IMG/VR virus record: IMGVR_UViG_3300017719_000036
Location: 1 to 41,990 of that record
Strand: one strand, 5' to 3'
DNA length: 41,990 nt
From: a virus
A program made the position numbers and the translations under genes. How positions within the stretch are numbered: position 1 is the stretch's first letter; each line of letters opens with the position of its first letter. The notes under the pieces are model-generated. The model ran no database searches. It was not told the origin of the DNA and saw nothing but the letters and a program-made list of their open reading frames with translations. Shown here in pieces: positions 8,259 through 35,532 of this stretch.

Positions 8259-8495
8259 ATGAGTATTAGATTTTTAAAAGTCGAAGGACACGGCGATTTA
8301 ATCAGAGATACAGGTTCGAATGGTATCATAAATACCAACAGGAGTGAATACGAGATTTACATGAAAAGAACAAAGGCGAGACTAACTCAACATGATAAAA
8401 TGCAAGATGTATGTAGAGAAGTAAACGACCTTAAAAAAGAATTGAGAGAAATAAAAGGTTTATTAATGAATATAGGTAAAAACAATGGCAATTAG
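8259..8495 (+). CDS. Small conserved coiled-coil protein
   Basis: 78 aa. It starts one base after the preceding stop and overlaps the next gene by 11 nt, so expression is probably translationally coupled. The second half (residues ~43-70: 'HDKMQDVCREVNDLKKELREIK') has heptad-like hydrophobic spacing typical of a short coiled coil. I do not recognise a defined function. Position between two virion genes suggests a small tail or fibre-attachment component or an assembly factor. Confidence 0.6.
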   Translation: MSIRFLKVEGHGDLIRDTGSNGIINTNRSEYEIYMKRTKARLTQHDKMQDVCREVNDLKKELREIKGLLMNIGKNNGN

Positions 8496-9888
8496 AAGCA
8501 TAGCACAAACAGATACTTTAGAAAAGTTTAGAACAGAATTTAACCAAATGACTGCTAATGATTTTGGTGATATTGCTACGCTTGACGCCGGTCTATCTGC
8601 TACAACCGTTATCGGTGCAGTAAACGAATTATCAGCTGCTGTATCATCTGGACAGGCATTTTTGATTGAAGACGCAAGTTCAACAGTTCAACAGGTTGCT
8701 TCTGGTCAAACATTAAAATTTAGAGGCACATCAAATCAATTAAATGCAGTTGTAAGTGTTCCAGATACAATGACTATCTCACTTGCAAATGATGTCACTA
8801 TACCAAATGATTTACAAGTCACAACAGATTTAAATGTTGCTGGTATTTCTACTCTTCAAGGTAATATTGTAGCAAGTTCTACTATGACAATATCAAGTGG
8901 TTCAATTGTTGATACCACAGGTCAAGTATCTTTCGGAGATGAAAACATAATTACAACAGGTAATATGTCGGCCGCTACTTTAAATGGTTCAAGTCTTGTT
9001 TCAAGTGGTTCAATTTCAGGTACAACTATTACAGCTTCGGGTGCTTTAGAGGGAACAAGTTTAGAATTAACAAGTGGCGGAATTGTTTTTGAAGGTTCTA
9101 CACCTGATGGTTTCGAAACTACTTTAACACCTACTGACCCTACAGCAGACCACACACTTACATTACCTAATATCACAGGTACTTTAATTACATCTGGTGA
9201 TACAGGTACAGTTACCTCAACTATGATTGAAAATGCAACTATTCAAAATGAAGATATTGCAAACTCAACAATCAGAGCTGCAAAAGTAAACTTTGCTACT
9301 GACACATTAGTTGTAGATACCTTACAGGCAAATGCTATTACTGGTACTGCTTCGATTGCACAGTTAGTTTCATTAACTGCCAACAATTCGACAGACGAAT
9401 CCGTTTTCTTAACATTTGCTGATGGTGCTACTGGTAACCAAGGTCTTGAAACAGACACGGATTTATTTTATAATCCTAGTACGAATATTTTAAATACAAC
9501 TGCTACAGCGGCTAGATATGCTGACTTGGCAGAGATGTATGTTACCGACAAACCTTATGGAATCGGTACAATTGTTATGTTTGGTGGTGAAAAAGAAATT
9601 ACCCTTGCAGACTTAAAAACGAGAAAAGTCGCAGGAGTTGTATCGGATAAGCCTGCTTTTTTAATGAATAAAAATTGTCAAAATGGACTTGCCATTGCCC
9701 TACAAGGTAGAGTAAAATGTAAAGTAATGGGTACTATACAAAAAGGCGACATGATAGTTGTAAGTGAAGAAGGCGGCGTAGGTACAGCAGACAGTAATCC
9801 TCAAATGGGTATGGTTGTTGGTAAAGCATTACAAGATTACAATTCAAATACCGAGGGACTAATCGAAGTAGTTGTTGGCCGCCTGTAA
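8485..9888 (+). CDS. Tail-fibre-like structural protein
   Basis: 467 aa. The N-terminus ('IRSIAQTDTLEKFRTEFNQ') has the style of phage fibre attachment regions. Residues ~60-330 are Ser/Thr/Gly-rich, low in charge and repetitive, as in trimeric fibre shafts. A motif of type 'GIVFEGSTPDGFETTLTPT..TADHTLTLPNITGTL' (residues ~194-234) recurs in the 126-aa protein at 24297. The C-terminal ~125 residues, starting near 'RYADLAEMYVTDKPYGIGT', form a compact beta-rich domain common at the ends of marine phage fibres. The ATG lies inside the end of the upstream gene. Receptor specificity cannot be read from sequence. Confidence 0.7.
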   Translation: MAIRSIAQTDTLEKFRTEFNQMTANDFGDIATLDAGLSATTVIGAVNELSAAVSSGQAFLIEDASSTVQQVASGQTLKFRGTSNQLNAVVSVPDTMTISLANDVTIPNDLQVTTDLNVAGISTLQGNIVASSTMTISSGSIVDTTGQVSFGDENIITTGNMSAATLNGSSLVSSGSISGTTITASGALEGTSLELTSGGIVFEGSTPDGFETTLTPTDPTADHTLTLPNITGTLITSGDTGTVTSTMIENATIQNEDIANSTIRAAKVNFATDTLVVDTLQANAITGTASIAQLVSLTANNSTDESVFLTFADGATGNQGLETDTDLFYNPSTNILNTTATAARYADLAEMYVTDKPYGIGTIVMFGGEKEITLADLKTRKVAGVVSDKPAFLMNKNCQNGLAIALQGRVKCKVMGTIQKGDMIVVSEEGGVGTADSNPQMGMVVGKALQDYNSNTEGLIEVVVGRL

Positions 9889-9902: not shown

Positions 9903-10352
9903 ATGATTAAATTATTAGAATGTGAAGTTGAAGATTATTCTCGTTATGAAAACAATCAATTAATTTTCCTTAAAGACAGAAAAGACTTTAGAGTAAAAGA
10001 TGAAATGTCTTTTGCCTCATGGTTACAACAATGGCGAAACCAAGATAGTATCAAGGTTGAAGGCCTAGAAGATAATGCTTCTATTGTAGCTAACTTTCCA
10101 TTTTTAAACATCAACAGTATTCATCTTTTTGCAAACTTAAAAGGTGAGTTTAGTTTTCCTAAACATAGTGATGATGTAAATGTATATCTACATATCGTAC
10201 AAGGTAGTAAAAAAATCTATCAATGGGTTGATGATATGAAATACGAAACTTTTATACAAGTCGGGCAATCACATGTTATTAACAGCGGTGTTGAACATGA
10301 GGTTGATAGTGAAAAAAATACATGGGCGTTGAGCGTTGGGTTTAATAGATGA
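9903..10352 (+). CDS. Cupin/JmjC-like Fe(II) oxygenase-like protein
   Basis: 149 aa. The second half reads as a cupin barrel: an H-x-D pair at His88-Asp90 ('FPKHSDDVNVYLHIVQGSKK') and a distal His132 in 'SGVEHEVDSE', at the spacing of the 2-His-1-carboxylate iron site of JmjC/cupin-type 2OG dioxygenases. 'GSKKIYQW' resembles the turn after the first ligand strand. A basic 2OG-binding residue is not obvious. The stop overlaps the start of the radical-SAM gene (ATGA), implying coupled translation and shared function. The oxygenase fold is likely. The substrate is unknown; I infer a peptide or protein of the same island. Confidence 0.6.
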   Translation: MIKLLECEVEDYSRYENNQLIFLKDRKDFRVKDEMSFASWLQQWRNQDSIKVEGLEDNASIVANFPFLNINSIHLFANLKGEFSFPKHSDDVNVYLHIVQGSKKIYQWVDDMKYETFIQVGQSHVINSGVEHEVDSEKNTWALSVGFNR

Positions 10353-11386
10353 ATTGGATGTTTTATGTAAAGACAACTGAAACATGTCAGTTGAATTGTA
10401 AACATTGTTTTACAAATGGTATTAATGGTGCAAAGATATATTTTAATCCAGAGAAGACCATAGATTGGTTTAAAAGATTTAGAGAATATCATGGCGAAAA
10501 TCATCAAGCACATTTTGAGTTTCATGGTGGTGAACCTTTCTTAGCACCAGTTTCGCATATGACGAAAGTATATGAAGAATGTAAAGATTTGTGGAAACAT
10601 TCATCATTCGGTATCACATCAAATTTAGTATTTAAACTTAAACAAGAACATTACGATTTTATTTCTGGTCCCCTTAATAATAGAATGGGAACGAGTTGGG
10701 ATCCTAAAATACGGTTTGCAAATGACAAACAATATATTTTATGGGAAAATAATGTAAGAGATTTAATAGAAAGAGGTACTATAATAAAACTATTTGTATC
10801 AGTAACCAAAGATACAATCAATATAGAACCTATTGAGTTATTAAAGTGGATAAAAAATCTAGGTATTCAAGAGGTATCATTTGAGAGATTAACAGGTAAT
10901 GGTAATGCAAATTTACATCCTGAAATCTTTCCAAGTAATATAGAACAGGATTTATGGTTTCTTAAAATGCACCATCAATCTAAAGAATATAATACTAGAG
11001 ACTGGTTTGAAAATGAATTCCTAGAAGTAATATATGACAAGTTTGAAACAGGTTTTTTAAAGGGTGGTACATTTTGTAGAGATTGTGAACAAAAAATATT
11101 TACAATTAATGCAGATGGAACATTAAGTGGTTGTCCTAATGCAGCTCCAGAGTTTCAGTTTGGTAATATAATACAAGATATAAAATCTCTTATAAATAGT
11201 CCACAAAGAATAGAGAATATTGCTTGTGAGAGGGCACGAAATCCAATATGTTTCGAGTGTCCTGTATTTGAATTTTGTGGTGGTGATTGTCACCAACTAT
11301 CATGGCAAGGCGATATTTGTGGTGCTCCAAAGAGCTTAATGAAGGAATTAAAGGCAGAAAAATATGGCAATATCGAATCCAGTTAG
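10349..11386 (+). CDS. Radical SAM/SPASM-type enzyme
   Basis: 345 aa. The 4Fe-4S/SAM motif is CxxxCxxC at Cys13, Cys17 and Cys20 ('CQLNCKHC'), followed by 'HGGEP' near residues 59-63, the usual SAM-binding glycine motif. The C-terminal third carries many cysteines ('CRDCEQ', 'GCPNAA', 'CFECPVFEFCGGDCH', 'GDICG'), the layout of a SPASM domain holding auxiliary Fe-S clusters, as in peptide-modifying enzymes (sulfatase maturases, RiPP enzymes). It overlaps the oxygenase gene upstream (4 nt) and the glycine-rich protein gene downstream (23 nt). I infer modification of a ribosomally made protein, the best candidates being the next two gene products. The family is firm; the substrate is inference. 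Confidence 0.88.
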   Translation: MNWMFYVKTTETCQLNCKHCFTNGINGAKIYFNPEKTIDWFKRFREYHGENHQAHFEFHGGEPFLAPVSHMTKVYEECKDLWKHSSFGITSNLVFKLKQEHYDFISGPLNNRMGTSWDPKIRFANDKQYILWENNVRDLIERGTIIKLFVSVTKDTINIEPIELLKWIKNLGIQEVSFERLTGNGNANLHPEIFPSNIEQDLWFLKMHHQSKEYNTRDWFENEFLEVIYDKFETGFLKGGTFCRDCEQKIFTINADGTLSGCPNAAPEFQFGNIIQDIKSLINSPQRIENIACERARNPICFECPVFEFCGGDCHQLSWQGDICGAPKSLMKELKAEKYGNIESS

Positions 11387-12290
11387 TACACAAGGTATAG
11401 TTGACAGGTTTGAAGACTTGGTCACAGATGTTGTTAATGCAGGTATAGTTTGGGGTGTAAATAACTTACCTTTTACTGAAATGCCTACTTCTAACTATGC
11501 GTTGGAATCAACTATTCTAGGTCAACAAAATTTAACCTTTGCAGGTACAACTACAACAACTGTACCATCTGGTGCTAATACAATTCACATAATCGCTGCT
11601 GTTGGTGGTGGTTCTGGTGGAGTTATGGGTGCCGAGTATGACAGAGGTGGCGGAGAAAGTGCAGGCGCTGGCGGTGGTTCAGGTGGTTATATTTCTGATA
11701 AAGCTTTCAATGTATCTGCCGGAGAAACAATGACATTTGTTGTAGGTTCTGCTGGTACTGCTGGTTCAGGTAGCGGATATAATACAACTGCTGGAAACGG
11801 TGGTTCAACTACAGCTTCAGGTTCATCAACAGGTGCTTTGTTTACATTAACAGGTGGTGTTGGTGGTTCAGGTACAGGAGGAGCAGTTTCAGGTCCTCTT
11901 CGAACAAACACAGCAAGTTCAGGTGGAACAGCAACGATTTCAGGAACACCATTAACAAGTGGTACATTTGTTGATACAACAGGTGCTTCAAGTAGTATTG
12001 TAAGTTCGTTTGTAAACGGACCTACTTCAACATTTAATGACCATGGTTCAGGTAGTGCAGGTGTAAATCCAGGAAATTGTGGTAGTGATAACTGTACAAT
12101 AACTGGTGGCGCAGGTGCTAGTTCATATGGTTCGGCCGTGAGTGGTGGAATAGGTGGCGTAGCAAGTTCATCTTCAGGTGGAGATGGTACAAGAGGTTCT
12201 GGAGGCGGTGGCGGAGGTGCTCAACACACTACTGCTGGTGGAATAGGCGGAGCAGGAGAAATAAGATACAGATTTTTATTTGTATCATAA
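11364..12290 (+). CDS. Glycine-rich fibre/adhesin-like protein
   Basis: 308 aa. After a short N-terminal region (residues 1-65, 'RFEDLVTDVVNAGIVWG') the protein is Gly/Ser/Thr-rich to its end, with runs such as 'GAGGGSGG' and 'GSGGGGGGA', ending in 'GEIRYRFLFV'. The 'HIIAAVGGGSGG..GAGGGSGGYISD' pattern resembles the glycine-rich domains of the three fibres at 29312-34401. Such domains form polyglycine-II-type sandwiches in some phage adhesins. The start lies inside the end of the radical-SAM gene, which is unusual for a virion protein and links the two. Two cysteines occur in 'NCGSDNC'. It could be an adhesin tip and a substrate of the island enzymes. Confidence 0.65.
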   Translation: MAISNPVSTQGIVDRFEDLVTDVVNAGIVWGVNNLPFTEMPTSNYALESTILGQQNLTFAGTTTTTVPSGANTIHIIAAVGGGSGGVMGAEYDRGGGESAGAGGGSGGYISDKAFNVSAGETMTFVVGSAGTAGSGSGYNTTAGNGGSTTASGSSTGALFTLTGGVGGSGTGGAVSGPLRTNTASSGGTATISGTPLTSGTFVDTTGASSSIVSSFVNGPTSTFNDHGSGSAGVNPGNCGSDNCTITGGAGASSYGSAVSGGIGGVASSSSGGDGTRGSGGGGGGAQHTTAGGIGGAGEIRYRFLFVS

Positions 12291-12293
12291 ATA
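12286..12293 (+). promoter_or_regulatory. Late-promoter-like CATAAATA
   Basis: The octamer overlaps the stop of the glycine-rich gene and lies 17 nt before the ATG of the (CHxS)3-tail gene. It differs from TATAAATA only at the first base. It would allow separate late expression of the putative substrate gene. Confidence 0.45.
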
Positions 12294-12309
12294 GTATAAA
12301 GGTAAATTT

Positions 12310-12732
12310 ATGGCAGTCACAATAGGAATAACAGGTGTAGATATAGCTGAGAGTGGTGATATAATTGAAGCTGATGATATTAGAACAGTTTTAGAAACCG
12401 AGACAGCACTATACACAAATGTTAGAAAACAAAATGCAGTTTTAAATGTCACAGGTGGTGGCGGAAATACAGGTTCAAGACCAACTGCCGGTGTTGTATT
12501 TAATTCAACAGAAATTGCACACTTACGAACAAGTGTAAGGCAAACATTGTCAGCTATTTCAGGTGCAGGTGTCACAACAGGTGATATAGTTAATGATGGT
12601 AATTTAGAAACATATTTTGGCAGAATTGCCACAGAATATAGTAGTCAGGCAAATAATGTGGTCACAGATACAATTGATGTATGCCACGCAAGTTGTCACT
12701 CATCTTGTCATGGAAGTAGAGGTAGAAGATAA
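12310..12732 (+). CDS. Small structural-like protein with C-terminal (CHxS)3-RGRR tail; putative modification substrate
   Basis: 140 aa. Residues 1-122 look like an ordinary small phage virion protein (Thr/Gly/Asn-rich, no cysteine). The last 16 residues are entirely different: Cys125-His-Ala-Ser, Cys129-His-Ser-Ser, Cys133-His-Gly-Ser, then Arg-Gly-Arg-Arg. This is a perfect three-fold CHxS repeat, and it also contains His-x-Ser repeats, the hallmark of HxsA-type substrates of radical-SAM maturases. The gene lies between radical-SAM genes. Its stop overlaps the next start (TAATG). I infer a RiPP-like core region on a virion protein. A metal-binding tip is the main alternative. Confidence 0.6.
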   Translation: MAVTIGITGVDIAESGDIIEADDIRTVLETETALYTNVRKQNAVLNVTGGGGNTGSRPTAGVVFNSTEIAHLRTSVRQTLSAISGAGVTTGDIVNDGNLETYFGRIATEYSSQANNVVTDTIDVCHASCHSSCHGSRGRR

Positions 12733-13406
12733 TGATTATTGAAACTAAAGCGCCAATAGCAATTGACGATTTAAAGAAACATTTTACAGACGAGAATGTA
12801 GAATTTTTAATTGATTATGATAAGTCAGATTTAAAAGGTGAAAAACTATTAACTTATTTAAGTAATTTAGATTTACCTTGTGATTTAAAGAATATGGACA
12901 TGTCATTATTAAAAGACTATTTTCATTCTACATCTTTATTATGTTGCAAAGAATTAGAAGAACAGGCTATTGATGTATTGTTGCAGTTTAAGACAATTGA
13001 TGACTTTGGTCCAGAGGTACAAAAGTTTATTAGTGAAAATTTAGATATTGTTAAAACATGGACAAGTAAACTAGACAGTTTATCATTATACAATATGCAT
13101 ACAATAAATGAACCAAAGTTCAAAGAATATGCAGAGGGTTTTACACATGATGATACAGACGAATTAGAGGGTGTTAATTTTATTAGTGTATTAAAGAATA
13201 CTAGATTTTTCGAGTTTTACAAACATGTTAAGAAAGATGACTTGAAATTCTATACTAAATACTTTAATGAATATATGTTTAGAGGAAAGAATATGTATTC
13301 ATATTGGGCAAATGCAAACAACCCAATGTTTTTATTAACAAGAGAAACGGTTGCCGGCAGACATAAAGATTATATGACTGCTAGAAATAACGAATTAGGA
13401 AAGTAA
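12732..13406 (+). CDS. Protein of unknown function in the modification island
   Basis: 224 aa. The start overlaps the previous stop (TAATG) and the next gene starts immediately after this stop, so the three are very probably co-translated. It appears soluble and acidic, predicted largely helical, without signal peptide or membrane segment. Cysteines occur at 'LPCDL' and 'LLCCKELEE'. No catalytic motif is recognisable. Its fixed place right after the (CHxS)3-tail gene makes a partner role (substrate recognition, chaperone or scaffold) plausible, but this is only inference. Confidence 0.55.
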   Translation: MIIETKAPIAIDDLKKHFTDENVEFLIDYDKSDLKGEKLLTYLSNLDLPCDLKNMDMSLLKDYFHSTSLLCCKELEEQAIDVLLQFKTIDDFGPEVQKFISENLDIVKTWTSKLDSLSLYNMHTINEPKFKEYAEGFTHDDTDELEGVNFISVLKNTRFFEFYKHVKKDDLKFYTKYFNEYMFRGKNMYSYWANANNPMFLLTRETVAGRHKDYMTARNNELGK

Positions 13407-14531
13407 ATGTTTTATCTATTTAAAAAGGTATATCTAGCTAGTGATAGTATCATTGATACATTTAGAGATAGAGTAGTAATCTCTAGTACAAATGGTGTCA
13501 AAGCAAGTCAACATATCGACATGTTTCCAGGTGCTCTTATGGCATGTGGTTCTAGTATCGTAGATGTTATAGGTCCAGGTAAAAATTTCTCAAACTGGTA
13601 TAACTTTTTTAAACAGTTGAACGATAAGACTACTGCTACAGGCAAACAAGTTGTTGTATATTGTGACAACGAAAGTTTAGTTTCAGTATGGATTGCTTAC
13701 ATGAAATATGTATTGGCAAATCCAGATAAAGATACTTGTAAAGCATTATTAGAAAGTCATGTATATAGATATGAAGTTTTTGCAAAAGGTAGATATTCAA
13801 GAAATACTACAAATACAAATATTGCATTTACAATCGAACAAGATAACTTTGATGATGAGTGGGCGGCCATTTCGGCACCTATTGAAGAAGATAGAGCGAA
13901 TTGGTTAGTAATTAATAAAGACCATTTACCAGTTGAATATCTATTAGCAACATATCTAAAAGATGGTACTTATAAAGATGAATTAAAAGGCCAACTTAAA
14001 AAACTATACAAGAAAGATTTAGAAAAGTTCTTGTTAGAATTAAAAGAAATATTCTATACACATTTAACAACTTCAAGTTTACCAGCAAGTTTAAGTCTAG
14101 CAAAAACATATACATTTGAGAATGCTAGAGAAATAGAAGATGATACAACGACATACGGTGAGTTATTTAATAATCGTAGATATTGGATGTATCCATATAT
14201 GAATTATGCTTCATCTGGTAAAAACATTAACTTTGATAATATTACTTCAACAGATATAACAAACTTAAAAGCTTTCGCAGACAAAGCTGAGGACGCATTT
14301 GCTGAATTTACTTCACTATCAGAAAGTGATAAATTAGATAAAATAGCAATTGCCAACGGAGAATTTACAGACGCTTTACTGACTACACTTATAGATGATG
14401 AAGCTGCATATGCTAATCAATCAGGTTCTTTTTCTTCAATAGATTTAGAAACTGTAAATCATTATTTTGTAGGTGCTATATTGTCTAATAAGTCAGACAA
14501 TGCATTTTTGGGTAAATACTCTATAACATAA
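13407..14531 (+). CDS. Protein of unknown function in the modification island
   Basis: 374 aa, starting directly after the preceding stop. The N-terminal ~130 residues look like an alpha/beta domain ('DRVVISSTNGVKASQHIDMF', 'KQVVVYCDNESLVSVWIAYM'), the second half is mainly helical with Lys/Glu-rich segments ('KGQLKKLYKKDLEKFLLELK'), and the C-terminal part is acidic and Ser/Thr-rich. I do not recognise a family. No Cys clusters, no HxD/H triad and no membrane segment are seen. Operon position between the putative substrate and two radical-SAM genes suggests a dedicated partner of the modification pathway. Confidence 0.55.
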   Translation: MFYLFKKVYLASDSIIDTFRDRVVISSTNGVKASQHIDMFPGALMACGSSIVDVIGPGKNFSNWYNFFKQLNDKTTATGKQVVVYCDNESLVSVWIAYMKYVLANPDKDTCKALLESHVYRYEVFAKGRYSRNTTNTNIAFTIEQDNFDDEWAAISAPIEEDRANWLVINKDHLPVEYLLATYLKDGTYKDELKGQLKKLYKKDLEKFLLELKEIFYTHLTTSSLPASLSLAKTYTFENAREIEDDTTTYGELFNNRRYWMYPYMNYASSGKNINFDNITSTDITNLKAFADKAEDAFAEFTSLSESDKLDKIAIANGEFTDALLTTLIDDEAAYANQSGSFSSIDLETVNHYFVGAILSNKSDNAFLGKYSIT

Positions 14532-14532
14532 T

Positions 14533-14537
14533 GAGGA
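14533..14537 (+). promoter_or_regulatory. Ribosome-binding site supporting a GTG start
   Basis: GAGGA lies 7 nt before the GTG at 14545. No in-frame ATG occurs nearby, so this site fixes the unusual GTG start of the radical-SAM gene. Confidence 0.55.
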
Positions 14538-14544
14538 AATATTT

Positions 14545-15576
14545 GTGTCATTTTATGATGTCATTGACAACAAGGTTGTTGATTATTGCGAGATAGTAAC
14601 CTGTCTCTTTGAACATTGCAATTTAAATTGTATTTTTTGCCCACAAGACCATAACAGTATTGTTGGTAGTTCAAGAAAAGAAATACTAGACAAAGCTCAA
14701 ACAATATCACACTACATTAATAATAATACCAGGTCGACAGATTTTTCTGTTCATATCATGGGTGGTGAATTGTTTTCCGATTATTGGTTGCAACAAAATT
14801 ATATACCAATATACACCAAGTTTATTAAGTTAATACGAAATAAAGTTAAGCCAGAAAAAAATGTTATTTTTAACTTTGTCAGTAATCTAGTATTTGAAAA
14901 TCACCATTTAGTCAGAGAATTTTTAGACGCAAACGATTTAAAGATATCTATATCTTACGACCCACACGGCCGTTTCAATTCATATAATAGTACACTATTC
15001 AAACAAAATGTCGAAAGATTTAAAGACAGAATTAGAATGGTATCATGTGTACAAACATATCAAAACATCAAAGCAATAAAACATGGTGATGAATACTTTG
15101 ATTACCTTTACAGTTTATTTCCAGTAGATTGGGACCATTTATTACCTAGTACAGGTAAAAAATCAGACTTGGCGATTATGCCAAGAGAGAGTGAAGTTTT
15201 AGCCTTTTATAAAATATTAATTGACAAGTATCCCAAGTGTAGAAATATAGAACATTTTACAAATGGTAAGTCAGAAAATAAAATGACATGTACGAGAGGT
15301 AACAGTCTAACAATTATGCCAGACGGTACGATACCTACAGGTTGTTCAGGTTCAGTTTTATTAAAAGAATACAACACCGAAGATTTGGGTGGTACAAAGA
15401 TAATGGAGAATTGGGTAAACAAATATAATTGTTTTGAATGTGATTATTTCAAAAGATGTCCAATGTCTTGTTTCATCAAATCAGATTTTAAACATTTAGA
15501 AGACGATTTACCTGATTGCGCTTTCAGATTGGCATTCAAATATAGTGATGAAAAAATTAAACATAGCCTTCGTTAA
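14545..15576 (+). CDS. Radical SAM enzyme with C-terminal SPASM/twitch-like cysteines
   Basis: 343 aa with a GTG start. The CxxxCxxC motif is at Cys25, Cys29 and Cys32 ('CNLNCIFC'), followed by 'HIMGGELF' as the SAM-binding segment. C-terminal cysteines ('CTRGNSLTIMPDGTIPTGC', 'CFECDYFKRCPMSC', 'PDCAF') indicate an auxiliary cluster domain, as in peptide-modifying radical-SAM enzymes. The 3' end overlaps the B12-type radical-SAM gene by about 29 nt, indicating coupled expression. Sequence outside the motifs differs from the enzyme at 10349, so a different bond or substrate site is likely. Substrate unknown. Confidence 0.85.
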   Translation: MSFYDVIDNKVVDYCEIVTCLFEHCNLNCIFCPQDHNSIVGSSRKEILDKAQTISHYINNNTRSTDFSVHIMGGELFSDYWLQQNYIPIYTKFIKLIRNKVKPEKNVIFNFVSNLVFENHHLVREFLDANDLKISISYDPHGRFNSYNSTLFKQNVERFKDRIRMVSCVQTYQNIKAIKHGDEYFDYLYSLFPVDWDHLLPSTGKKSDLAIMPRESEVLAFYKILIDKYPKCRNIEHFTNGKSENKMTCTRGNSLTIMPDGTIPTGCSGSVLLKEYNTEDLGGTKIMENWVNKYNCFECDYFKRCPMSCFIKSDFKHLEDDLPDCAFRLAFKYSDEKIKHSLR

Positions 15577-17251
15577 TCCACCACACGCTGATTGGTCATT
15601 AGCTAATAATATGACCTATCTGATGGTACAAAGCCATTATAACCTAGTTGGTAGGTATAAGGCAAGCGTGAATTGGATAGAAGCGCCATTTAAATTTAAC
15701 AAATATACAACGATTGAGGAATTATATGAAGACATTAGTAAAACAAATAAACCAGATATTGTTATGTTTAGTTCTTATAGCTGGAATTTTCCTATTATTG
15801 ACAGCCTTGCTGAATATTGCAAACAACAAAATCCCAAAACAATCACAGTTGTTGGCGGACCCCACATTGGCCTTTATGAAAATGAATTATTAGAAGAAAG
15901 AAAAAGAATATACGATTTTATTTGTCAACCTACAAAACCTGGCGAACCATACATGGAAGATTTAATCAATAGTTGGTTTGAAAATGATGGTAAACCTGTT
16001 GTAGAAGATATTAGTTGGGAGATGAGAAGTCTAAAGGCAACAAAACATAATATTAATACAGACGCTTCTATTTACGAAGAACACCATGAGTACCTCAAAA
16101 AAACTTTAGATTACGCTAAAGCAAATAAAATGGAACCCTTTATGATATTAGAAACGACCAGAGGTTGTCCTTACAAATGTGTATATTGTGAATGGGGTGG
16201 TGGCACAGATACAAAGATTATTAAGAAAGATATTGAGTTAGTCAAAAGAGATATAGACTGGATTAAAAAGGCAGGTTATAGAGACGCATACTTAACAGAC
16301 GCAAACTTTGGTGCCTTTGAACAAAGAGATTTAGATATATTCGCCTATGCGTGGGGTAAGAATTTTAATTTAACAGATATTTCTACAATGAAGTCGCCAA
16401 GTTTAGAAAGGCGAAAACGATTGATAGATAAATGGTTTGAAATTGTTGGTGCAGGACCAGAAAAACATAGTAAGTCCGAGGGAGGTACCGATATGTGGGG
16501 AGATACACAGTATGTATCGGTAGTGCCAACAGTTTCAATACAATCTATTAGTGAAGAAGCTATGAAAGTATCTAAAAGAAAAGACTTATCATGTAAAGAT
16601 AAATTAGAATTAAGTAGGCATATTGAAAAAAGATGTAGAGAAGAGGGGTTTCCAGTACCAGCATTAGAATTAATTTTAGCTATGCCTGGTAGTACACTTG
16701 AAGATTTTTATGATGAGGTAGAAGTAATATGGAATTTTAAAGCATGGTCTAGTTTCAGACATGATTATATGTTTTTACCAGATAGTGAATTAAGTAATCC
16801 AAAATATATTAAAGAATATGATATTGAAACAGTAGAAGTATATTCTGATATTATAGACGAAGATGGTTCTGATAATTGGAACAGTTTGTATAAAAACAAA
16901 AAGACTACATTTAGAACAATGAGGTCTTGTTATTCTTATACAGTAGAAGATATGAAAGAGATGTGGTTTATGAATAATGCAGCTAATTATTTGTTAAGAA
17001 ATTTTTATGAGGGTATCAAAGAATATTGTAAACCACAAGAGATGGCCAAAGAGTGTTATAAAGTTATTAAAACACTACCAGAATTTGAACCTATTAGAGA
17101 AGAGATTGATGATATATTCAATCCTAACACACCCGCCAGGTCAATTAGAACATTGAATGGTGAATTTAGAGTAAAGGTAATTGATAGAATGTTAGAAGAA
17201 AATATGACGATAATTAAATCGGAAGTCATGTCCAAGTTGTTGAATAAATAG
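15548..17251 (+). CDS. Radical SAM enzyme with B12-binding-like N-terminal domain
   Basis: 567 aa from ATG at 15548 (GTG at 15545 is an alternative). Residues ~1-150 have the Rossmann-like pattern of cobalamin-binding domains: 'KLNIAFVNPP' strand, 'PDIVMFSSYSWNFP' and 'TITVVGGPHIGLYENELL'. The DxHxxG base-off motif is absent, as in many B12 radical-SAM enzymes. The cluster motif is Cys207, Cys211, Cys214 ('TTRGCPYKCVYCEWGGG'). A B12-type radical SAM next to SPASM-type enzymes is known from RiPP pathways, where it C-methylates peptides (PoyB/PoyC type). Other reactions are possible. Residues ~425-565 form a long helical extension of unknown role. Confidence 0.82.
   Translation: MKKLNIAFVNPPHADWSLANNMTYLMVQSHYNLVGRYKASVNWIEAPFKFNKYTTIEELYEDISKTNKPDIVMFSSYSWNFPIIDSLAEYCKQQNPKTITVVGGPHIGLYENELLEERKRIYDFICQPTKPGEPYMEDLINSWFENDGKPVVEDISWEMRSLKATKHNINTDASIYEEHHEYLKKTLDYAKANKMEPFMILETTRGCPYKCVYCEWGGGTDTKIIKKDIELVKRDIDWIKKAGYRDAYLTDANFGAFEQRDLDIFAYAWGKNFNLTDISTMKSPSLERRKRLIDKWFEIVGAGPEKHSKSEGGTDMWGDTQYVSVVPTVSIQSISEEAMKVSKRKDLSCKDKLELSRHIEKRCREEGFPVPALELILAMPGSTLEDFYDEVEVIWNFKAWSSFRHDYMFLPDSELSNPKYIKEYDIETVEVYSDIIDEDGSDNWNSLYKNKKTTFRTMRSCYSYTVEDMKEMWFMNNAANYLLRNFYEGIKEYCKPQEMAKECYKVIKTLPEFEPIREEIDDIFNPNTPARSIRTLNGEFRVKVIDRMLEENMTIIKSEVMSKLLNK
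17243..17250 (+). promoter_or_regulatory. Late-promoter-like AATAAATA
   Basis: The octamer overlaps the stop of the B12-type gene and ends only 6 nt before the next ATG. Transcripts would be nearly leaderless, so function is doubtful and the match may be due to A+T-rich codons. Confidence 0.25.
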
Positions 17252-17255
17252 TAAT

Positions 17256-17753
17256 ATGATTGATGATGTAAACATAAAAGGTTATGTGAAGTTGTATGAA
17301 CCAGGTATATCAGAGTTGGTAAACCTTGATGAACATACACTCTTAAACACCGAAGAAAGACAACGAGATAATGGAGAGAAAGATGTAAATCCTTTCTTAC
17401 ATCAAAAGTTGACAGTTGTTGGTAAATATCTACATGAGAAGTTTATCAAACCAAAATATGCTAATTCAGACTATATGTATTACAATGTATGGGACGGAGT
17501 TGATAAAGATAATCAAGGTTGGCATACAGACTTTATGGAAGGATATGATTTGTTTTTCTTATATTATTTTGACACAGCAAATGAAGATACTGGTGGTCAA
17601 ATAGAGTTTAAATGGCAAGACGGTGAAGAGAAATATTATCCTCAATCAGGTGATTTATTTTTAGTATCTAACAAAAGAGGATATTGGCACAAAGCAGGCT
17701 CTACGAATATTACAAGAAGAGTTGCTAGTTTCAATTTTAAAACAAATGAGTAA
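17256..17753 (+). CDS. Fe(II)/2-oxoglutarate-dependent oxygenase
   Basis: 165 aa, a minimal double-stranded beta-helix. The iron triad is His90-x-Asp92 ('GWHTDFMEGYD') with distal His145 ('RGYWHKAGS'), and the 2OG-binding arginine is Arg154 or Arg155 ('NITRRVASFNF'). 'TGGQIEF' and 'PQSGDLFLV' are typical strands between the ligands. It follows the B12 radical-SAM gene after 4 nt and overlaps the next ORF by 8 nt. Enzymes of this size hydroxylate amino-acid side chains or small molecules. In this context a peptide or protein substrate is my inference. Confidence 0.8.
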   Translation: MIDDVNIKGYVKLYEPGISELVNLDEHTLLNTEERQRDNGEKDVNPFLHQKLTVVGKYLHEKFIKPKYANSDYMYYNVWDGVDKDNQGWHTDFMEGYDLFFLYYFDTANEDTGGQIEFKWQDGEEKYYPQSGDLFLVSNKRGYWHKAGSTNITRRVASFNFKTNE

Positions 17754-18084
17754 TTTTGTGACAGACACCGGTAGTAAGTTTTATAAAATGAATGTTGATG
17801 ATTTAATGGTAAAGAAAAAGCGTTTAAGTCTTGAAAGGGATTTATGCGCCGAAATGTATAATTTAATGTTATCAAAAGCAAATGCTAGCATTAATAACGA
17901 AAGTAAATACAAATACTATTTAGATGTAGTAGAAGTAATGGAACCTTATGCTAAAGAAACTAAAGAAGAAATTAGGGAAATTAATCGTCAAATATGTAAA
18001 CTGGTGGGCAGGGATACACTAAAAGGTACAGTATATAATTTAGAATGTGAGGACAGGTATGGATTATCCAAACCCGAATTATAA
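17746..18084 (+). CDS. Small helical protein of unknown function
   Basis: 112 aa from ATG 17746, overlapping the oxygenase stop by 8 nt and the next oxygenase start by 26 nt. Predicted almost wholly helical and highly charged ('LMVKKKRLSLERDLCAEM', 'KETKEEIREINRQICKLVG'), with amphipathic spacing compatible with a short coiled coil. An earlier ATG at 17722 is possible but would overlap more deeply. No catalytic motif. Sandwiched between two 2OG oxygenases, it may be an adaptor or assembly partner. Confidence 0.5.
   Translation: MSNFVTDTGSKFYKMNVDDLMVKKKRLSLERDLCAEMYNLMLSKANASINNESKYKYYLDVVEVMEPYAKETKEEIREINRQICKLVGRDTLKGTVYNLECEDRYGLSKPEL
18049..18053 (+). promoter_or_regulatory. Ribosome-binding site choosing the 18059 start
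   Basis: GAGGA lies 5 nt upstream of ATG 18059. The in-frame GTG at 18047 has no comparable site, so the downstream ATG is preferred. Confidence 0.5.
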
Positions 18085-18571
18085 TGATTTTTTTCTAAAG
18101 GGTTATGTACATGGTAAATGCTCATTAGATGTAAGTCATTTTGAAGACTACAAATATCCAGACGCAAACGATTCCGAAGCAGATAGTAGACCTAAAGAAG
18201 CAAGGTCAGATTTAACAACTCTACACTTGTTAATAGGCCAAGAATATATTAATAAAATTTTTGGTAGAGATTACATACTAAAAGAAAATGGTATGTGGGA
18301 GGGTGTTGATGATGGTTCTCATATCTGGCACAATGACGCAAACAAAGGTAAAGATTTCAATACCAATTTTTTGATTTATATGGACGACAACGAAGTCGGT
18401 CTTAACAGTATTGGAGTTAGAGATAAGATAGATGAACATGTTATCTTTCCTAACAAATATGATTTTATGTGGTTAAACCAATCTTCAGCATTTGAACATA
18501 AAGCCGCCCACAACGGTGGTCGAAGAAGAGTGTTGTCATTTGAGTATAAGGTATATGGACTTAATAATTAA
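18059..18571 (+). CDS. Fe(II)/2-oxoglutarate-dependent oxygenase-like protein
   Basis: 170 aa. Ligand pattern: His91-Asn-Asp93 ('HIWHNDANKGKD'), distal His147 ('SSAFEHKAAHN') and an Arg155-157 cluster ('GGRRRVLSFEY') for 2OG. 'NFLIYMDD' and 'YDFMWLNQ' are the intervening strands. Weak overall similarity to the 17256 protein (same motif order and length) suggests distant paralogues. It overlaps the radical-SAM gene downstream by 17 nt. Substrate unknown, inferred to be shared with neighbouring enzymes. Confidence 0.72.
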   Translation: MDYPNPNYNDFFLKGYVHGKCSLDVSHFEDYKYPDANDSEADSRPKEARSDLTTLHLLIGQEYINKIFGRDYILKENGMWEGVDDGSHIWHNDANKGKDFNTNFLIYMDDNEVGLNSIGVRDKIDEHVIFPNKYDFMWLNQSSAFEHKAAHNGGRRRVLSFEYKVYGLNN

Positions 18572-19640
18572 ACCAACTGAATTATGTAATTTTAAATGTT
18601 CTTTCTGTTCTAGTACAAAGATTGCTGAACACAAGAAAGATATATTATCACACGATTACATATTTAAATTCTTAAAAAGATATCCAGATACAAATACAAT
18701 AATTGTAAATGGCGGTGACCCATTGATGATGGATCCTGATTACTATTGGAGAATTATAGAACATTTAAATGAAAATGATTATAAAGCAAGTATATCATTA
18801 ACAACAAACTTATGGCCATTTCTAGTAAAACCTAAAAAATGGAAAGACTTGTTTAATGATGACAGAGTAGGTGTCACAACATCTTTTCAATATGGTGGTG
18901 GTAGATTAAAAGGTGATTTTTCTGAATTTACGGAAGAAGATTTTTGGAGATGTTCAGACGCTATGTTAGAACATTGTGGTTATAGACCAGATTTTATCGC
19001 AGTTATTGTTCCAGAAAATGCAGACAGAGCTATTAAGAATGTAGAATTGGCATATGAGATGTCGGCAGGATTTAAACCAGTTGATACATTTGAAAATCTA
19101 TCTAAAGATAAGTTAGGTGTTGAGTGTAAATTAAACTATGCAATGGCAAGTGGTGACCAAGAGAAACCTTTTTTAAAAGGAGATATCTACAAAACATATG
19201 TTGAAATATACAACCAAGGTTTAGCGCCATGGGAGTTTAATACAAAACAAATGGCAAAGAGATTAAGAAGAGAACAAACACTTTGTCCTTTACATAGAAC
19301 ATGTGACGCAGGTATCAGAGCATTCAATCCTAGTGGTGATTATTATTCATGTGGTGCATTTGGTGATGACAAAGATAAACCAATTGACTTTGATAGAGAA
19401 ATGAATGGTGAGTTTTTTCTACCATTATCTAAAGACTTAAATTTACACTCTATGAAACAGGCATGTTATACTTGTCCTATGTTTGAGATATGTAATGGTT
19501 GTAGAAAAACAATTAAAGATTATAAAGAACATGGTTTAGTAGAACAACATTGTCGTAAAATGAAAAAGATTGCTCCGGAGATACTTAAAATAAATCGAAT
19601 AAATAGTGATGTGACACCTTATGTGGATGAAAGTATATGA
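18555..19640 (+). CDS. Radical SAM/SPASM-type enzyme
   Basis: 361 aa from ATG 18555, chosen because AAGG lies just upstream and the family start is normally close to the cluster motif. CxxxCxxC is at Cys11, Cys15, Cys18 ('CNFKCSFC'), with 'IIVNGGDPLM' as the SAM-binding segment. C-terminal cysteines ('CPLHRTCDAG', 'YYSCGAFGDD', 'CYTCPMFEICNGCRK', 'EQHC') fit a SPASM domain with auxiliary clusters. It overlaps both flanking 2OG oxygenase genes (17 nt and 4 nt), a strong hint that these enzymes act in one pathway. Substrate not evident. Confidence 0.87.
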   Translation: MDLIIKPTELCNFKCSFCSSTKIAEHKKDILSHDYIFKFLKRYPDTNTIIVNGGDPLMMDPDYYWRIIEHLNENDYKASISLTTNLWPFLVKPKKWKDLFNDDRVGVTTSFQYGGGRLKGDFSEFTEEDFWRCSDAMLEHCGYRPDFIAVIVPENADRAIKNVELAYEMSAGFKPVDTFENLSKDKLGVECKLNYAMASGDQEKPFLKGDIYKTYVEIYNQGLAPWEFNTKQMAKRLRREQTLCPLHRTCDAGIRAFNPSGDYYSCGAFGDDKDKPIDFDREMNGEFFLPLSKDLNLHSMKQACYTCPMFEICNGCRKTIKDYKEHGLVEQHCRKMKKIAPEILKINRINSDVTPYVDESI

Positions 19641-20188
19641 TTAATATTGAATTTGGAACACCTGTATTTGATACAAAGATAAGAAGTCAAGCTGCTAAAG
19701 ATACAGCAGAATACATACTTATCAATTATAATAGTTCTAATAAAAAATCAAGTAATGTAAGTGGTGATAATATATTTGATGATGAGGGTTTAACTAAATT
19801 TAAAAATGATGAAGTTATACCAACATTTAAAAGATATTGTTCATACTTTAATATTGATTTAGATAAGAAAGATTATGATTTGCGAGGTTGGGTTACCGGT
19901 TATGGTACTAACTATGCAATGCCAAAACATAATCATTCAGGTTCACATTTGAGTGCTGTGTTTTATTTGTTATGTGAAGAAACAAATGGTGGAGATTTAG
20001 TCTTACATGACCCACGAACAAATGCGAATAGAGGATATAAAGATGAATTTTTAAATATGTTTCAACCTGTAAGAATGACACCTAAAACAGGACAAGTTAT
20101 TATGTTTCCTAGTTTTATGTATCATAATGTGGAAACATTCAATGGTAAGATGAGGTTGGCAATGCCAGTCGATTTGATTATGTATTAA
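19637..20188 (+). CDS. Putative 2OG-Fe(II) oxygenase (TIGR02466-like)
   Basis: 183 aa. The core reads 'MPKHNHSGSHLSAVFYLL', then 'GGDLVLHDPR', 'PKTGQVIMFPSFMYHNVE' and 'MRLAMPVDL', which is the pattern of the 'putative 2OG-Fe(II) oxygenase' family common in cyanophages and marine bacteria. Likely iron ligands are His98/His100, a downstream acidic or His residue, and His163; Arg173 would bind 2OG. It lacks a classical HxD, which is normal for this family. The start overlaps the previous stop (ATGA) and the next radical-SAM gene begins 1 nt later. Confidence 0.75.
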   Translation: MINIEFGTPVFDTKIRSQAAKDTAEYILINYNSSNKKSSNVSGDNIFDDEGLTKFKNDEVIPTFKRYCSYFNIDLDKKDYDLRGWVTGYGTNYAMPKHNHSGSHLSAVFYLLCEETNGGDLVLHDPRTNANRGYKDEFLNMFQPVRMTPKTGQVIMFPSFMYHNVETFNGKMRLAMPVDLIMY

Positions 20189-20189
20189 T

Positions 20190-21134
20190 ATGAAGAAGAT
20201 TACAGTTTCAATCAATCCAAGTTATTTTTGTAATTTTAGATGTAAGTTTTGTTATTTAACACCTGAAGAATTAGGTGACCAAAAAAGAATAGACTTGCGA
20301 GAATTAGATAGATTACTAGATGAAATAACAATGCATAGAGAGATAGATTGGATTGATTTGTACGGCGGGGAGATTGGTGCTTTAAAGAAAAACTTTTTTT
20401 ATGGTATGCGAGATGTTATTAGAAAATGGTATGGTGGGAAAATTAATATCATTTCAAACTTTAGTATGCTACATAAGGGGTTTTTTGAGAAAGACTTTTA
20501 CCTATCGGTAAGTTATGACTTTGAAGCAAGGGAGATGTCTGATAGAGTATATCAGAATATGCTACAAAGTAAAGTGCCAATCGCCGTATTAATTCTTGCT
20601 AGTCAAGATGTGATTGATAAAGATGTTAATGAGATGATTACTATGATGAATGCTTGTAGTAGTATAGAGAGTGTTGAGATAAAACCATATTCTACAAATC
20701 AAGCTAATCAACAAAATGTGACACATAAAGATTTTGAAGAGTTTGTTAAAAAGTGGATAGATAGTGATGTTCCTAAAAGATTTGATTTTATCAATGAAGG
20801 CAGAATAGTAGATAGTTTGAATGGTGATTATAATGCCTTTTCAAATGACCACATTTACATAACACCAAATGGTAAGTTTGGTGTGTTAGAGTTTGATAAA
20901 GATGATAATGAATATTTTAAAGAGTTAGATACATTTCAAGATTATATAAAATGGGCAGATGAGGAACCAATACATAATGTATCAGATATTTGTCGTAAGT
21001 GCGTTTATTATGGTAAGTGTTTAACTGAACATTACAGATATGTGACCGACTTAACACATTCATGTAATGGGTACAAAGGACTATTAGATTGGTATGATGA
21101 AAGACTGGAAAATAAAACAAGAATTATATCATAG
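20190..21134 (+). CDS. Radical SAM enzyme with short C-terminal Cys cluster
   Basis: 314 aa, the smallest radical-SAM protein here. The cluster motif is Cys14, Cys18, Cys21 ('CNFRCKFCY'), followed by 'IDLYGGEIG' as the SAM-binding segment. The C-terminus has 'CRKCVYYGKCLTEHY' and 'HSCNGYKG', enough for one auxiliary cluster (twitch/SPASM-like). It lies 1 nt after the 2OG oxygenase and overlaps the next ORF by about 40 nt. Proposed role: last radical-SAM step of the island. The reaction is unknown. Confidence 0.85.
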   Translation: MKKITVSINPSYFCNFRCKFCYLTPEELGDQKRIDLRELDRLLDEITMHREIDWIDLYGGEIGALKKNFFYGMRDVIRKWYGGKINIISNFSMLHKGFFEKDFYLSVSYDFEAREMSDRVYQNMLQSKVPIAVLILASQDVIDKDVNEMITMMNACSSIESVEIKPYSTNQANQQNVTHKDFEEFVKKWIDSDVPKRFDFINEGRIVDSLNGDYNAFSNDHIYITPNGKFGVLEFDKDDNEYFKELDTFQDYIKWADEEPIHNVSDICRKCVYYGKCLTEHYRYVTDLTHSCNGYKGLLDWYDERLENKTRIIS

Positions 21135-21489
21135 ATTAAATAGAACACATGATGACGACCTCAAAGAAGTAAAGGTTGAGATTGATGATGATATTGTTGG
21201 TAATGCTATAAGATATTTTAGAGAGAGTGATATAGGCTGGATATATCCGGCAAAAAGTTATGCAGTAGGTATAATGTATGCGTACTGGTTGTCAAAAGAT
21301 TATGATGAAGATATGTATGACTTATTAAATGACAAAGATTTGTTGTACGGAAACGACCCTCATTTTAAACCATACCATGAGGATAAAGAGACATACGATA
21401 AGATAATACAGAGTGTGTGTCCGTTTGATGAAAATAAAGGTATGGTTTCCGATATTAAATATTGGTACAAACAAGAATTTCTGTTATAA
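21097..21489 (+). CDS. Unknown protein ending the modification island
   Basis: 130 aa from ATG 21097 (the adjacent ATG at 21094 is an alternative), overlapping the radical-SAM gene. It is acidic, with aromatic-rich segments ('IGWIYPAKSYAVGIMYAYWLSKDYDED', helical) and one cysteine ('QSVCPFDENKG'). No signal peptide. The central 'YAVGIMYAYWL' stretch is hydrophobic but too short for a confident membrane helix. Not recognised. A late promoter follows its stop, so it closes the unit. Confidence 0.5.
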   Translation: MKDWKIKQELYHRLNRTHDDDLKEVKVEIDDDIVGNAIRYFRESDIGWIYPAKSYAVGIMYAYWLSKDYDEDMYDLLNDKDLLYGNDPHFKPYHEDKETYDKIIQSVCPFDENKGMVSDIKYWYKQEFLL

Positions 21490-34953: not shown

Positions 34954-35532
34954 ATGATGAAAAACTTTAATGATGGTTTTATTGATGTAATAGATAATTT
35001 TCTTCCAAAATATACATTTCAAAGAATACAAGAATTAGTTTTATCTACTGATTTTTTTTGGCATTGGACAGAAAACGATTACAACGAAGCAGACCCCACT
35101 CTAAAAAATATAAAAGAACAAGACATTGGTACATACATGATGTCACATGTTTTATATATTCCTCACAAAGAAACAAGTCCATTATATAAATCATTCCTTC
35201 CTATCACGGATAGTGTGAGGGAACATGGGTATTCTACTATTAGACCATTAAAATTTAAACTAAATATGTACACCAATCAAGGTAAACATAATCATCTAGC
35301 TAAACACAAAGATTTTTATGAAGTAGATAAATCGGAGAAGTTTATTACAGGTGTTTTAGGTTTAACAAATGATAATGGCGCTACTGTAATTGGTGATAAA
35401 GAATTTAAAACAAAAGAAAATACTATGGTTCTTTTTGATGGTAATTTGTTGCATGGTGGATATACACAAACAGATACCAAAAGAAGAGTTATATTAAATG
35501 TAAACTATGAGGTTAGAAAATGGGTAAATTAA
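34954..35532 (+). CDS. Fe(II)/2-oxoglutarate-dependent oxygenase
   Basis: 192 aa. The iron triad is His118-Lys-Asp120 ('LAKHKDFYEV') and His167 ('GNLLHGGYTQ'), with Arg177/Arg178 ('TKRRVILNVNYEV') for 2OG. The 'KFKLNMYTNQGKHNH' strand before the HxD is typical of phage 2OG enzymes. The C-terminus overlaps the start of the halogenase gene by 13 nt, so the two are probably translated together and may act on the same target. Substrate unknown. Confidence 0.8.
   Translation: MMKNFNDGFIDVIDNFLPKYTFQRIQELVLSTDFFWHWTENDYNEADPTLKNIKEQDIGTYMMSHVLYIPHKETSPLYKSFLPITDSVREHGYSTIRPLKFKLNMYTNQGKHNHLAKHKDFYEVDKSEKFITGVLGLTNDNGATVIGDKEFKTKENTMVLFDGNLLHGGYTQTDTKRRVILNVNYEVRKWVN

Follow-up and report, generated by a model that had tools for sequence, protein, structure and literature searches.

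A conserved radical-SAM island of phages and predatory bacteria probably modifies the C-terminal tail of a fibre-associated protein

Why should a phage carry a whole set of radical S-adenosylmethionine (radical-SAM) enzymes and putative 2-oxoglutarate (2OG) oxygenases among its tail genes? The question is raised by IMGVR_UViG_3300017719_000036, a complete IMG/VR record of 41,990 bases, linear and probably a fragment, which is referred to here, at its full length, as the window. On sequence grounds its source is a T4-like myovirus; profile searches showed that it also encodes a gp8-like baseplate protein, a DUF4815 protein, tail fibres and a tail-sheath stabiliser. The genes in question form an island (positions 9903-21489), in which they lie on one strand and mostly touch or overlap. 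A first-pass annotation had proposed that the island modifies a virion peptide or adhesin by a pathway like those producing ribosomally synthesized and post-translationally modified peptides (RiPPs). Our reading, to which we give a probability of about 0.7, is that a RiPP-like pathway modifies the C-terminal 16 residues of a folded, fibre-associated protein, which would serve as a tip for Gram-negative surfaces.

The proposed substrate is a protein of 140 residues (12310-12732) that terminates in DVCHASCHSSCHGSRGRR immediately before the stop codon. This ending has the general form CHxSCHxSCHxSRGRR, i.e., three CHxS repeats plus RGRR, 16 residues in all. A tblastn search with the window protein against isolate phages gave no match, and relatives were reached instead via the radical-SAM gene that we call rSAM-A. 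In several jumbo phages the gene right after rSAM-A encodes a protein with the same ending on a different body: DYCHTSCHASCHSSRSRR in Sinorhizobium phage Phosso, DFCHSSCHASCHNSRSRR in Agrobacterium phage Atu_ph07, TVCHSSCHTSCHGSRGRR in Burkholderia phage FLC6 and TICHTSCHTSCHSARGRR in Pseudomonas phage DT01. The motif protein is gp72 in FLC6 and in SURPRISE13, and PA10_00065 in DT01. Scanned with a degenerate DNA pattern for the ending, IMG/VR gave at least 120 matching stretches; among the matches listed, most encode proteins that end exactly at RxRR-stop. The motif scan yielded 152 distinct proteins, in all of which the motif sits at the extreme C-terminus and its Cys, His and Arg residues are invariant, while the codons for the motif residues vary freely (TGT/TGC, CAT/CAC and the Arg codons). 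Invariant residues combined with free synonymous change imply a strong constraint on the peptide.

Is this tail connected with the enzymes? To avoid circularity, loci were chosen by rSAM-A similarity alone: 80 of the 361 relatives found were fetched, and the linkage test was restricted to the 70 loci with at least 1 kb downstream of rSAM-A. A motif protein is encoded downstream of rSAM-A in all 70, within 100 nt in 65 of them and at 924-1038 nt in the other five, in three of which a Gly-rich open reading frame (ORF) of the window type intervenes. The RiPP-type pattern of an encoded precursor with a conserved core beside its maturases is thus present. Furthermore, a cupin gene accompanies rSAM-A in 80/80 loci, and a fibre gene lies at most 4 kb upstream of rSAM-A in 71/75. 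The genes follow an almost constant order: fibre, cupin/JmjC, rSAM-A, motif protein, a 224-residue protein, an optional 374-residue protein, rSAM-B, optional B12-dependent radical-SAM (B12-rSAM) and 2OG enzymes, rSAM-C, rSAM-D and a 131-residue protein. Because this arrangement is repeated in independent contigs, chance and an artefact of assembly can both be dismissed as its cause.

By definition, islands classed as complete (n=68) have rSAM-A, rSAM-C, and either rSAM-D or the 131-residue gene. All 68 contain rSAM-A to rSAM-D and the 224-residue protein; since the selection rule covers rSAM-A, rSAM-C and rSAM-D/131-residue gene, the independent results are rSAM-B and the 224-residue protein. 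The 374-residue gene is found in 62 of these islands, the cupin in 59, the 131-residue gene in 55 and the B12-rSAM in 22, and the number of 2OG genes ranges from zero to five. The island occurs in IMG/VR contigs and in jumbo phages of Sinorhizobium, Agrobacterium, Burkholderia and Pseudomonas (four isolate lineages), and the 131-residue gene is present in all named jumbo phages examined. The first-pass annotation would have been refuted by enzymes scattered in unrelated contexts without the putative substrates; no such scatter was seen among the loci tested for linkage.

Some layouts depart from this pattern. Locus L040 has a variant core with four repeats (CHSNCHSNCHSNCHTNRSRR), duplicated radical-SAM genes and a very divergent rSAM-A. 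One phage group (L007, L032, L041, L043, L047, L055, L068, L075, L082, L084, L089, L103 and L105) has two tandem motif proteins (about 125-140 residues) directly after the fibre gene, and its radical-SAM genes lie farther off; three contigs binned with a Rhodobacteraceae metagenome-assembled genome (MAG) show the same tandem layout.

The features of the window that the following argument needs are these:

8485-9888, + strand: fibre-like protein, 467 residues, with a Peptidase_G2-like C-terminal domain (weak Pfam Peptidase_G2), directly upstream of the island
9903-10352, + strand: cupin/JmjC-like putative 2OG hydroxylase with HxD...H (weak Pfam Cupin_2/JmjC_2)
10349-11386, + strand: rSAM-A, radical-SAM/SPASM, peptide-maturase-like (PapB-like, E 1.7e-13; SPASM above cut-off)
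11364-12290, + strand: Gly-rich adhesin-like protein, putative anchor domain in the first ~46 residues (Pfam Gly_rich_2, E 2e-10)
12310-12732, + strand: motif protein, proposed precursor/substrate, 140 residues (phrog_35144, E 1e-7)
12682-12729, + strand: core CHASCHSSCHGSRGRR, extreme C-terminus of the motif protein (DNA pattern match 12682-12711)
12732-13406, + strand: conserved 224-residue protein, phrog_20767, candidate recognition or scaffold partner (conservation, fold model)
13407-14531, + strand: 374-residue protein, unknown, semi-core
14545-15576, + strand: rSAM-B (phrog_1802, E 6e-32)
15545-17251, + strand: B12-rSAM, KedN5-like, C-methyltransferase-like, optional module (KedN5 family, E 7e-30, below cut-off)
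17256-17753, + strand: 2OG-Fe(II) oxygenase-like protein 1 (Pfam 2OG-FeII_Oxy_3, E 5e-5; HxD...H in 71/72)
17722-18084, + strand: 120-residue unknown protein (present in 15 loci)
18047-18571, + strand: 2OG-oxygenase-like protein 2 (HxD...H in 20/20 family members)
18492-19640, + strand: rSAM-C, SPASM-like, family start probably the ATG at 18555 (Pfam Radical_SAM, E 7e-9)
19637-20188, + strand: 2OG-Fe(II) oxygenase 3 (PF13759, E 9e-14)
20190-21134, + strand: rSAM-D (Pfam Radical_SAM, E 6.5e-6, below gathering score)
21094-21489, + strand: 131-residue core unknown, final gene of the island

This inventory agrees with the one given in the first-pass annotation, including the gene overlaps. Its five radical-SAM enzymes, one of them B12-binding-like, are recovered at 10349, 14545, 15545, 18492 and 20190 by matches to Pfam Radical_SAM/Fer4_12, SPASM and B12-binding, and its Cys-rich C-termini by the number of Cys beyond residue 200 (6-11 in rSAM-A, B and C; 4-9, mostly 4-5, in rSAM-D). 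One cupin/JmjC-like protein (9903) and three 2OG oxygenase-like proteins are likewise present, two of the three (17256, 18047, 19637) called by Pfam and the third by its HxD...H motif and family, as are four unknown proteins (12732, 13407, 17722, 21094). Of these, the 120-residue one usually follows oxygenase 1 in islands with a B12-rSAM, and the 374-residue one has no Pfam or NCBIfam match. The catalytic motifs are intact throughout, CX3CX2C being kept by all radical-SAM family members and HxD...H by 92/92 members of the cupin family, except in oxygenase family 3, where a simple HxD/E/N...H test is passed by 49/93.

What might these enzymes do? Radical-SAM enzymes of this type form thioether or C-C bonds, B12-rSAMs methylate, and JmjC/2OG enzymes hydroxylate. 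None of the enzymes reached an NCBIfam equivalog cut-off: rSAM-A scored 50.5 bits against the 340 of PapB (ranthipeptide), and the B12-rSAM 103.7 against the 700 of KedN5, its B12-binding domain being present nonetheless. A viperin-like defence role for rSAM-D was rejected (33 bits; cut-off 180). rSAM-A shares 41-51% identity with isolate jumbo-phage proteins, and rSAM-C 57-73% even with jumbo-phage copies; the nearest solved structure to rSAM-C is a sulfatase maturase. The cupin matches the profile of the histidyl hydroxylase MINA53 (E 3e-5), and cupin dioxygenases rank higher, e.g., quercetin dioxygenase (E 8e-10); the similarity to a histidyl hydroxylase would fit a His-rich core.

Additional enzymes are found in other islands. 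DT01 and predator islands also encode another radical-SAM-like family, marked by CxxxCxGC (L004 18934-20965, L227 2784-3866, L252 3-3259); if it is counted, up to seven radical-SAM-like genes per island are possible. Islands of Burkholderia phages have two adjacent genes annotated as dihydrofolate reductase between rSAM-B and rSAM-C (L003 18319-19532, L005 18406-19583).

With regard to the substrate, two structural-looking proteins had been noted inside the island. Both ORFs are present (11364 and 12310), but they do not represent two substrates. In the relatives a single precursor of about 190 residues is encoded, and in the window this precursor is divided over two ORFs: the 308-residue Gly-rich ORF carries the first ~46 residues, and the motif ORF is the remainder. 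The Gly-rich ORF is identical to residues 4-47 of an unsplit precursor at 28 of 44 positions (64%), and it is matched by a hidden Markov model of the N-terminal domain (E 9e-16). The split accounts for both structural-looking proteins, the Gly-rich one contributing the anchor domain only. That this domain is fused to a region rich in Gly and adhesin-like in character supports the view that the precursor is fibre-associated. The fibre-like protein upstream of the island matches the tail-fibre family PHROG 19602 (E 3e-6). Neither the split nor the CHxSCHxSCHxSRGRR ending nor the presence on predator chromosomes described below figured in the first-pass annotation.

The unsplit 190-residue precursor (locus L136) was modelled with a predicted local distance difference test (pLDDT) score of 86.8 and a predicted template modelling score of 0.79, and confidence falls to about 50 across the last ten residues. 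According to this model, the precursor is a folded domain with a C-terminal tail that is left unplaced. Foldseek matches to the model were in phage proteins only: one from Atu_ph07, as long as the motif protein of that phage, one of 178 residues, probably from DT01, and one from an uncultured phage. Three proteins of 504-660 residues of Myoviridae sp. ctijX18 also share the fold (Foldseek E 1e-4 to 5e-4; BFVD A0A8S5USJ8, A0A8S5USJ7 and A0A8S5USV2). The model of the 224-residue protein (pLDDT 93.3) had no match among the solved structures of the PDB.

These features bear on the view that the C-terminus is cut off and released as a free antibacterial, signalling or superinfection-exclusion RiPP. 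The mix of enzymes does resemble that of natural-product RiPP clusters, but profile searches (Pfam, NCBIfam and PHROG) gave no peptidase or transporter match for any gene of the window island, the N-terminal part is a predicted folded domain instead of a short leader, and a fibre gene is nearby in nearly all loci. We therefore regard a released peptide as very improbable.

Scarcely more probable is the idea that the enzymes act on another target, such as a host protein, a tail fibre, a nucleotide or a lipid, with the motif protein as a recognition partner or an unrelated neighbour. It draws on annotations of phage radical-SAM genes as DNA-repair or metabolic genes, the relevant passages on DT01 connecting its radical-SAM proteins with the repair of DNA and with host metabolism (PMC8541153), and on a tryptophan-halogenase-like protein encoded amid the downstream tail-fibre genes of the window (35520-37133; phrog_2928, E 3.5e-141), another possible modifier. 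Against it stand the strict linkage of rSAM-A and motif protein, the invariant, disordered-looking tail, and a tendency of the B12-rSAM to occur with non-Gly residues at core position -6: Gly is found there in 5/22 islands with this enzyme and in 35/46 without it (Fisher p 5e-5, uncorrected for the 119 tests made), tree-based independent pairs pointing in the same direction without being significant, in an underpowered comparison. The window itself is an exception to this trend. The halogenase-like gene comes after three paralogous fibre genes (29312, 31160 and 33010), each followed by an ORF of about 150-170 residues.

Is the motif protein part of the virion? In Atu_ph07, coding sequences 170-215 make up one of three clusters of virion proteins identified by mass spectrometry (PMC6102473). 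The genome numbering that we used agrees with that of the publication, in which gp215 is the major head protein and gp198 the portal. The motif protein is gp170, the first coding sequence of the cluster, to which the radical-SAM genes gp165 and gp168 do not belong; this place is suggestive of a virion protein.

Several observations weigh against our interpretation. Firstly, rSAM-A (gp171) and the cupin (gp172) of Atu_ph07 also fall within this cluster and, since each of the three clusters comprises exactly 46 genes, its boundary may be conventional (PMC6102473); for these reasons the cluster evidence is suggestive only. Secondly, no PDB structure matches the fold of the precursor, and the designation "fibre tip" therefore rests on context. 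Thirdly, a 2OG enzyme is absent from 6/68 and the B12-rSAM from 46/68 of the islands classed as complete, and with such variable content the final product must vary. Finally, an assignment of enzymes to residues by covariation did not hold, as only the B12-rSAM and position -6 stood out, not significantly when the tree was considered; covariation thus ties no enzyme to a particular core residue.

Is the system confined to phages? When 84,980 prokaryote genomes were scanned for the exact pattern, 19 stretches were returned, of which nine belong to Bdellovibrio-like predators (classed by name or island type), three are chance matches and the rest are apparently phage contigs in MAGs. The matches in Frankia, Pseudoalteromonas and Bordetella are ascribed to chance, having no motif ORF and no rSAM-A; a search for rSAM-A at E 1e-40 found none among 398 genomes sampled from the Pseudoalteromonas phylum, a weak negative. 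At E<1e-60, rSAM-A is present in 13/129 and 3/144 genomes of two predator classes, and sixteen predator genomes carry the set. On long predator contigs the islands are chromosomal, beside housekeeping genes (a small ribosomal-protein-like gene, cytochrome oxidase genes). In most predator genomes an S74-capped pilin and/or a G2-like gene adjoins the island. In the two pilin-like neighbours tested, Pfam gave the N-methyl motif and, at the C-terminus, a Peptidase_S74 chaperone domain, and the other neighbour, of about 195 residues, is homologous to the G2-like C-terminal domain of the phage fibre (hhalign probability 97.1, E 6e-11). Most predator islands also have nearby a gene for a small protein bearing a Tat-like RR signal, and one may speculate that this partner serves export after folding. 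In three predator genomes no pilin-like, G2-like or Tat-like neighbour was found within the fetched stretch. The rSAM-A tree, in which several branches are long, requires three phage/predator changes; judging from it, the system probably moved between phages and predators, in either direction.

The predator cores CHGNFPPPCHGSRGRR, CHTNVPTPPPCHASRGRR, CHSSHSSHSSHSSRGRR and CHSNHCSHSNHGSRGRR keep H-x-S/N and RGRR and have lost some Cys, and some predator cores separate the CH pairs with prolines. These variants bear on a further reading, in which the CHxS repeats of the tail, once hydroxylated or cross-linked, would bind Fe, Cu or Zn, or themselves serve as a redox group, where a trimer ends, giving a metal- or cofactor-binding tip that is not adhesive. 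Metal-bound His tips do occur on phage spikes and fibres (T4 gp37, P2 gpV), and three Cys and three His, invariant in the 152 proteins, within 16 residues would suit such a role; on the other hand, in predator variants most Cys are lost (CHSSHSSHSSHSSRGRR) or the CH pairs are set apart, and simple metal tips do not need radical enzymes. This role, which is compatible with our explanation in all but the final function, seems to us unlikely, although less so than a released peptide or another target. A haem-c tip was rejected: CHxSCH is formally CX3CH, but it is lost in predator cores (CHSSHSSHSSHSSRGRR, CHGNFPPPCHGSRGRR), and the cytoplasmic synthesis of phage proteins also disfavours it.

Returning to the RiPP-like modification of a fibre-associated protein, we envisage the following course. 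In the cytoplasm, rSAM-A to rSAM-D, the cupin/JmjC protein and the 2OG enzymes, optionally joined by the B12-rSAM, would act on the flexible tail, which would become cross-linked, hydroxylated or methylated; the 224-residue protein, perhaps together with the 374- and 131-residue proteins, would probably present the substrate. The finished protein would then be assembled beside the chaperone-capped fibre without proteolytic release, and its tail would form a hardened or ligand-binding tip that contacts Gram-negative surfaces. In Bdellovibrio-like predators the same module would serve a pilus-like (pilin) fibre. The earlier proposal of a RiPP-like pathway is well supported: the precursor-like protein after rSAM-A, the constant enzyme set, the invariant tail, the conserved catalytic motifs, the fibre-cap domain common to phages and predators and the chromosomal islands of predators are observed, and we infer the action on the tail, the bonds made, the location in the virion and at a tip, and a role in receptor binding or penetration.

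The same set of radical enzymes is carried by hundreds of phages and by some predators, which probably build with it a chemically modified tip to grip or pierce bacteria. The wider view that a C-terminal group built by radical enzymes is a new class of surface-engaging tip, common to phages and predators, exchanged between them and used to grip or penetrate Gram-negative cells, is put forward tentatively, at somewhat less than even odds. If true, phages would bear, on the apparatus that touches the host, a covalently elaborated peptide made by at least four radical enzymes in each of the islands classed as complete, and the presence of the same module beside predator pilins would link two modes of attack on Gram-negative cells via one chemical device. 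Island enzymes such as the highly conserved rSAM-C would be a ready source of new peptide chemistry, and direct mass spectrometry is feasible, since several isolated phages carry the island.

How does the island relate to known systems? In the full text of open-licence PubMed Central papers we did not find an earlier description of a phage RiPP/radical-SAM system or of the motif. Ralstonia phages RSF1 and RP31 are said, in passages of the papers concerned, to carry such genes; the passages at hand from the papers on FLC6, SURPRISE13, DT01 and RP12/RP31 mention radical-SAM genes singly and remark neither on the motif protein nor on the island as a whole. Multi-enzyme radical chemistry is known for natural products and for a few enzymes, and its use in building virus particles was not found in the open-access literature.

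Among the closest are the ranthipeptide/sactipeptide systems, in which a SPASM radical-SAM enzyme stands beside a gene with a C-terminal Cys-repeat core. PapB (NCBIfam NF047865) is the best NCBIfam match of rSAM-A, but far below its cut-off and, unlike PapB systems, the island has at least four different radical-SAM enzymes, a folded structural domain where a leader would be expected and a fibre/pilus context, and no peptidase or transporter was found in it. The His-Xaa-Ser systems (HxsA/HxsB/HxsC/HxsD) share a repeated H-x-S core, as in the predator core HSSHSSHSSHSS, but their cut-offs were missed (HxsA E 0.009 and 16 bits versus 121.65, HxsB 34.2 versus 370, HxsC at most 26.9 versus 267.9), HxsD had no match in NCBIfam searches of the island proteins, the phage cores have period-4 CHxS repeats and RGRR, and the island adds 2OG and B12 enzymes. 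The phage core is likewise a CXXX repeat, as are the targets of the TIGR04115 radical-SAM family; rSAM-A scored 22.5 bits against a cut-off of 350, and in predators Cys is replaceable while H-x-S/N and RGRR persist. In proteusins (polytheonamide-type), several radical-SAM enzymes, a B12-rSAM methyltransferase and a 2OG hydroxylase act on one precursor, and the island combines the same kinds of enzymes; unlike proteusins, it shows no proteusin-type leader, its substrate is apparently a structural protein and its SPASM enzymes are many and distinct. Finally, anaerobic sulfatase maturases and QHNDH thioether formation also exemplify radical chemistry whose product is still a protein, but there a single enzyme acts on an enzyme active site or subunit, whereas here a multi-enzyme island is associated with a fibre-associated protein. 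Set beside these systems, the island would represent a RiPP-type modification with an apparently unprecedented substrate and setting.

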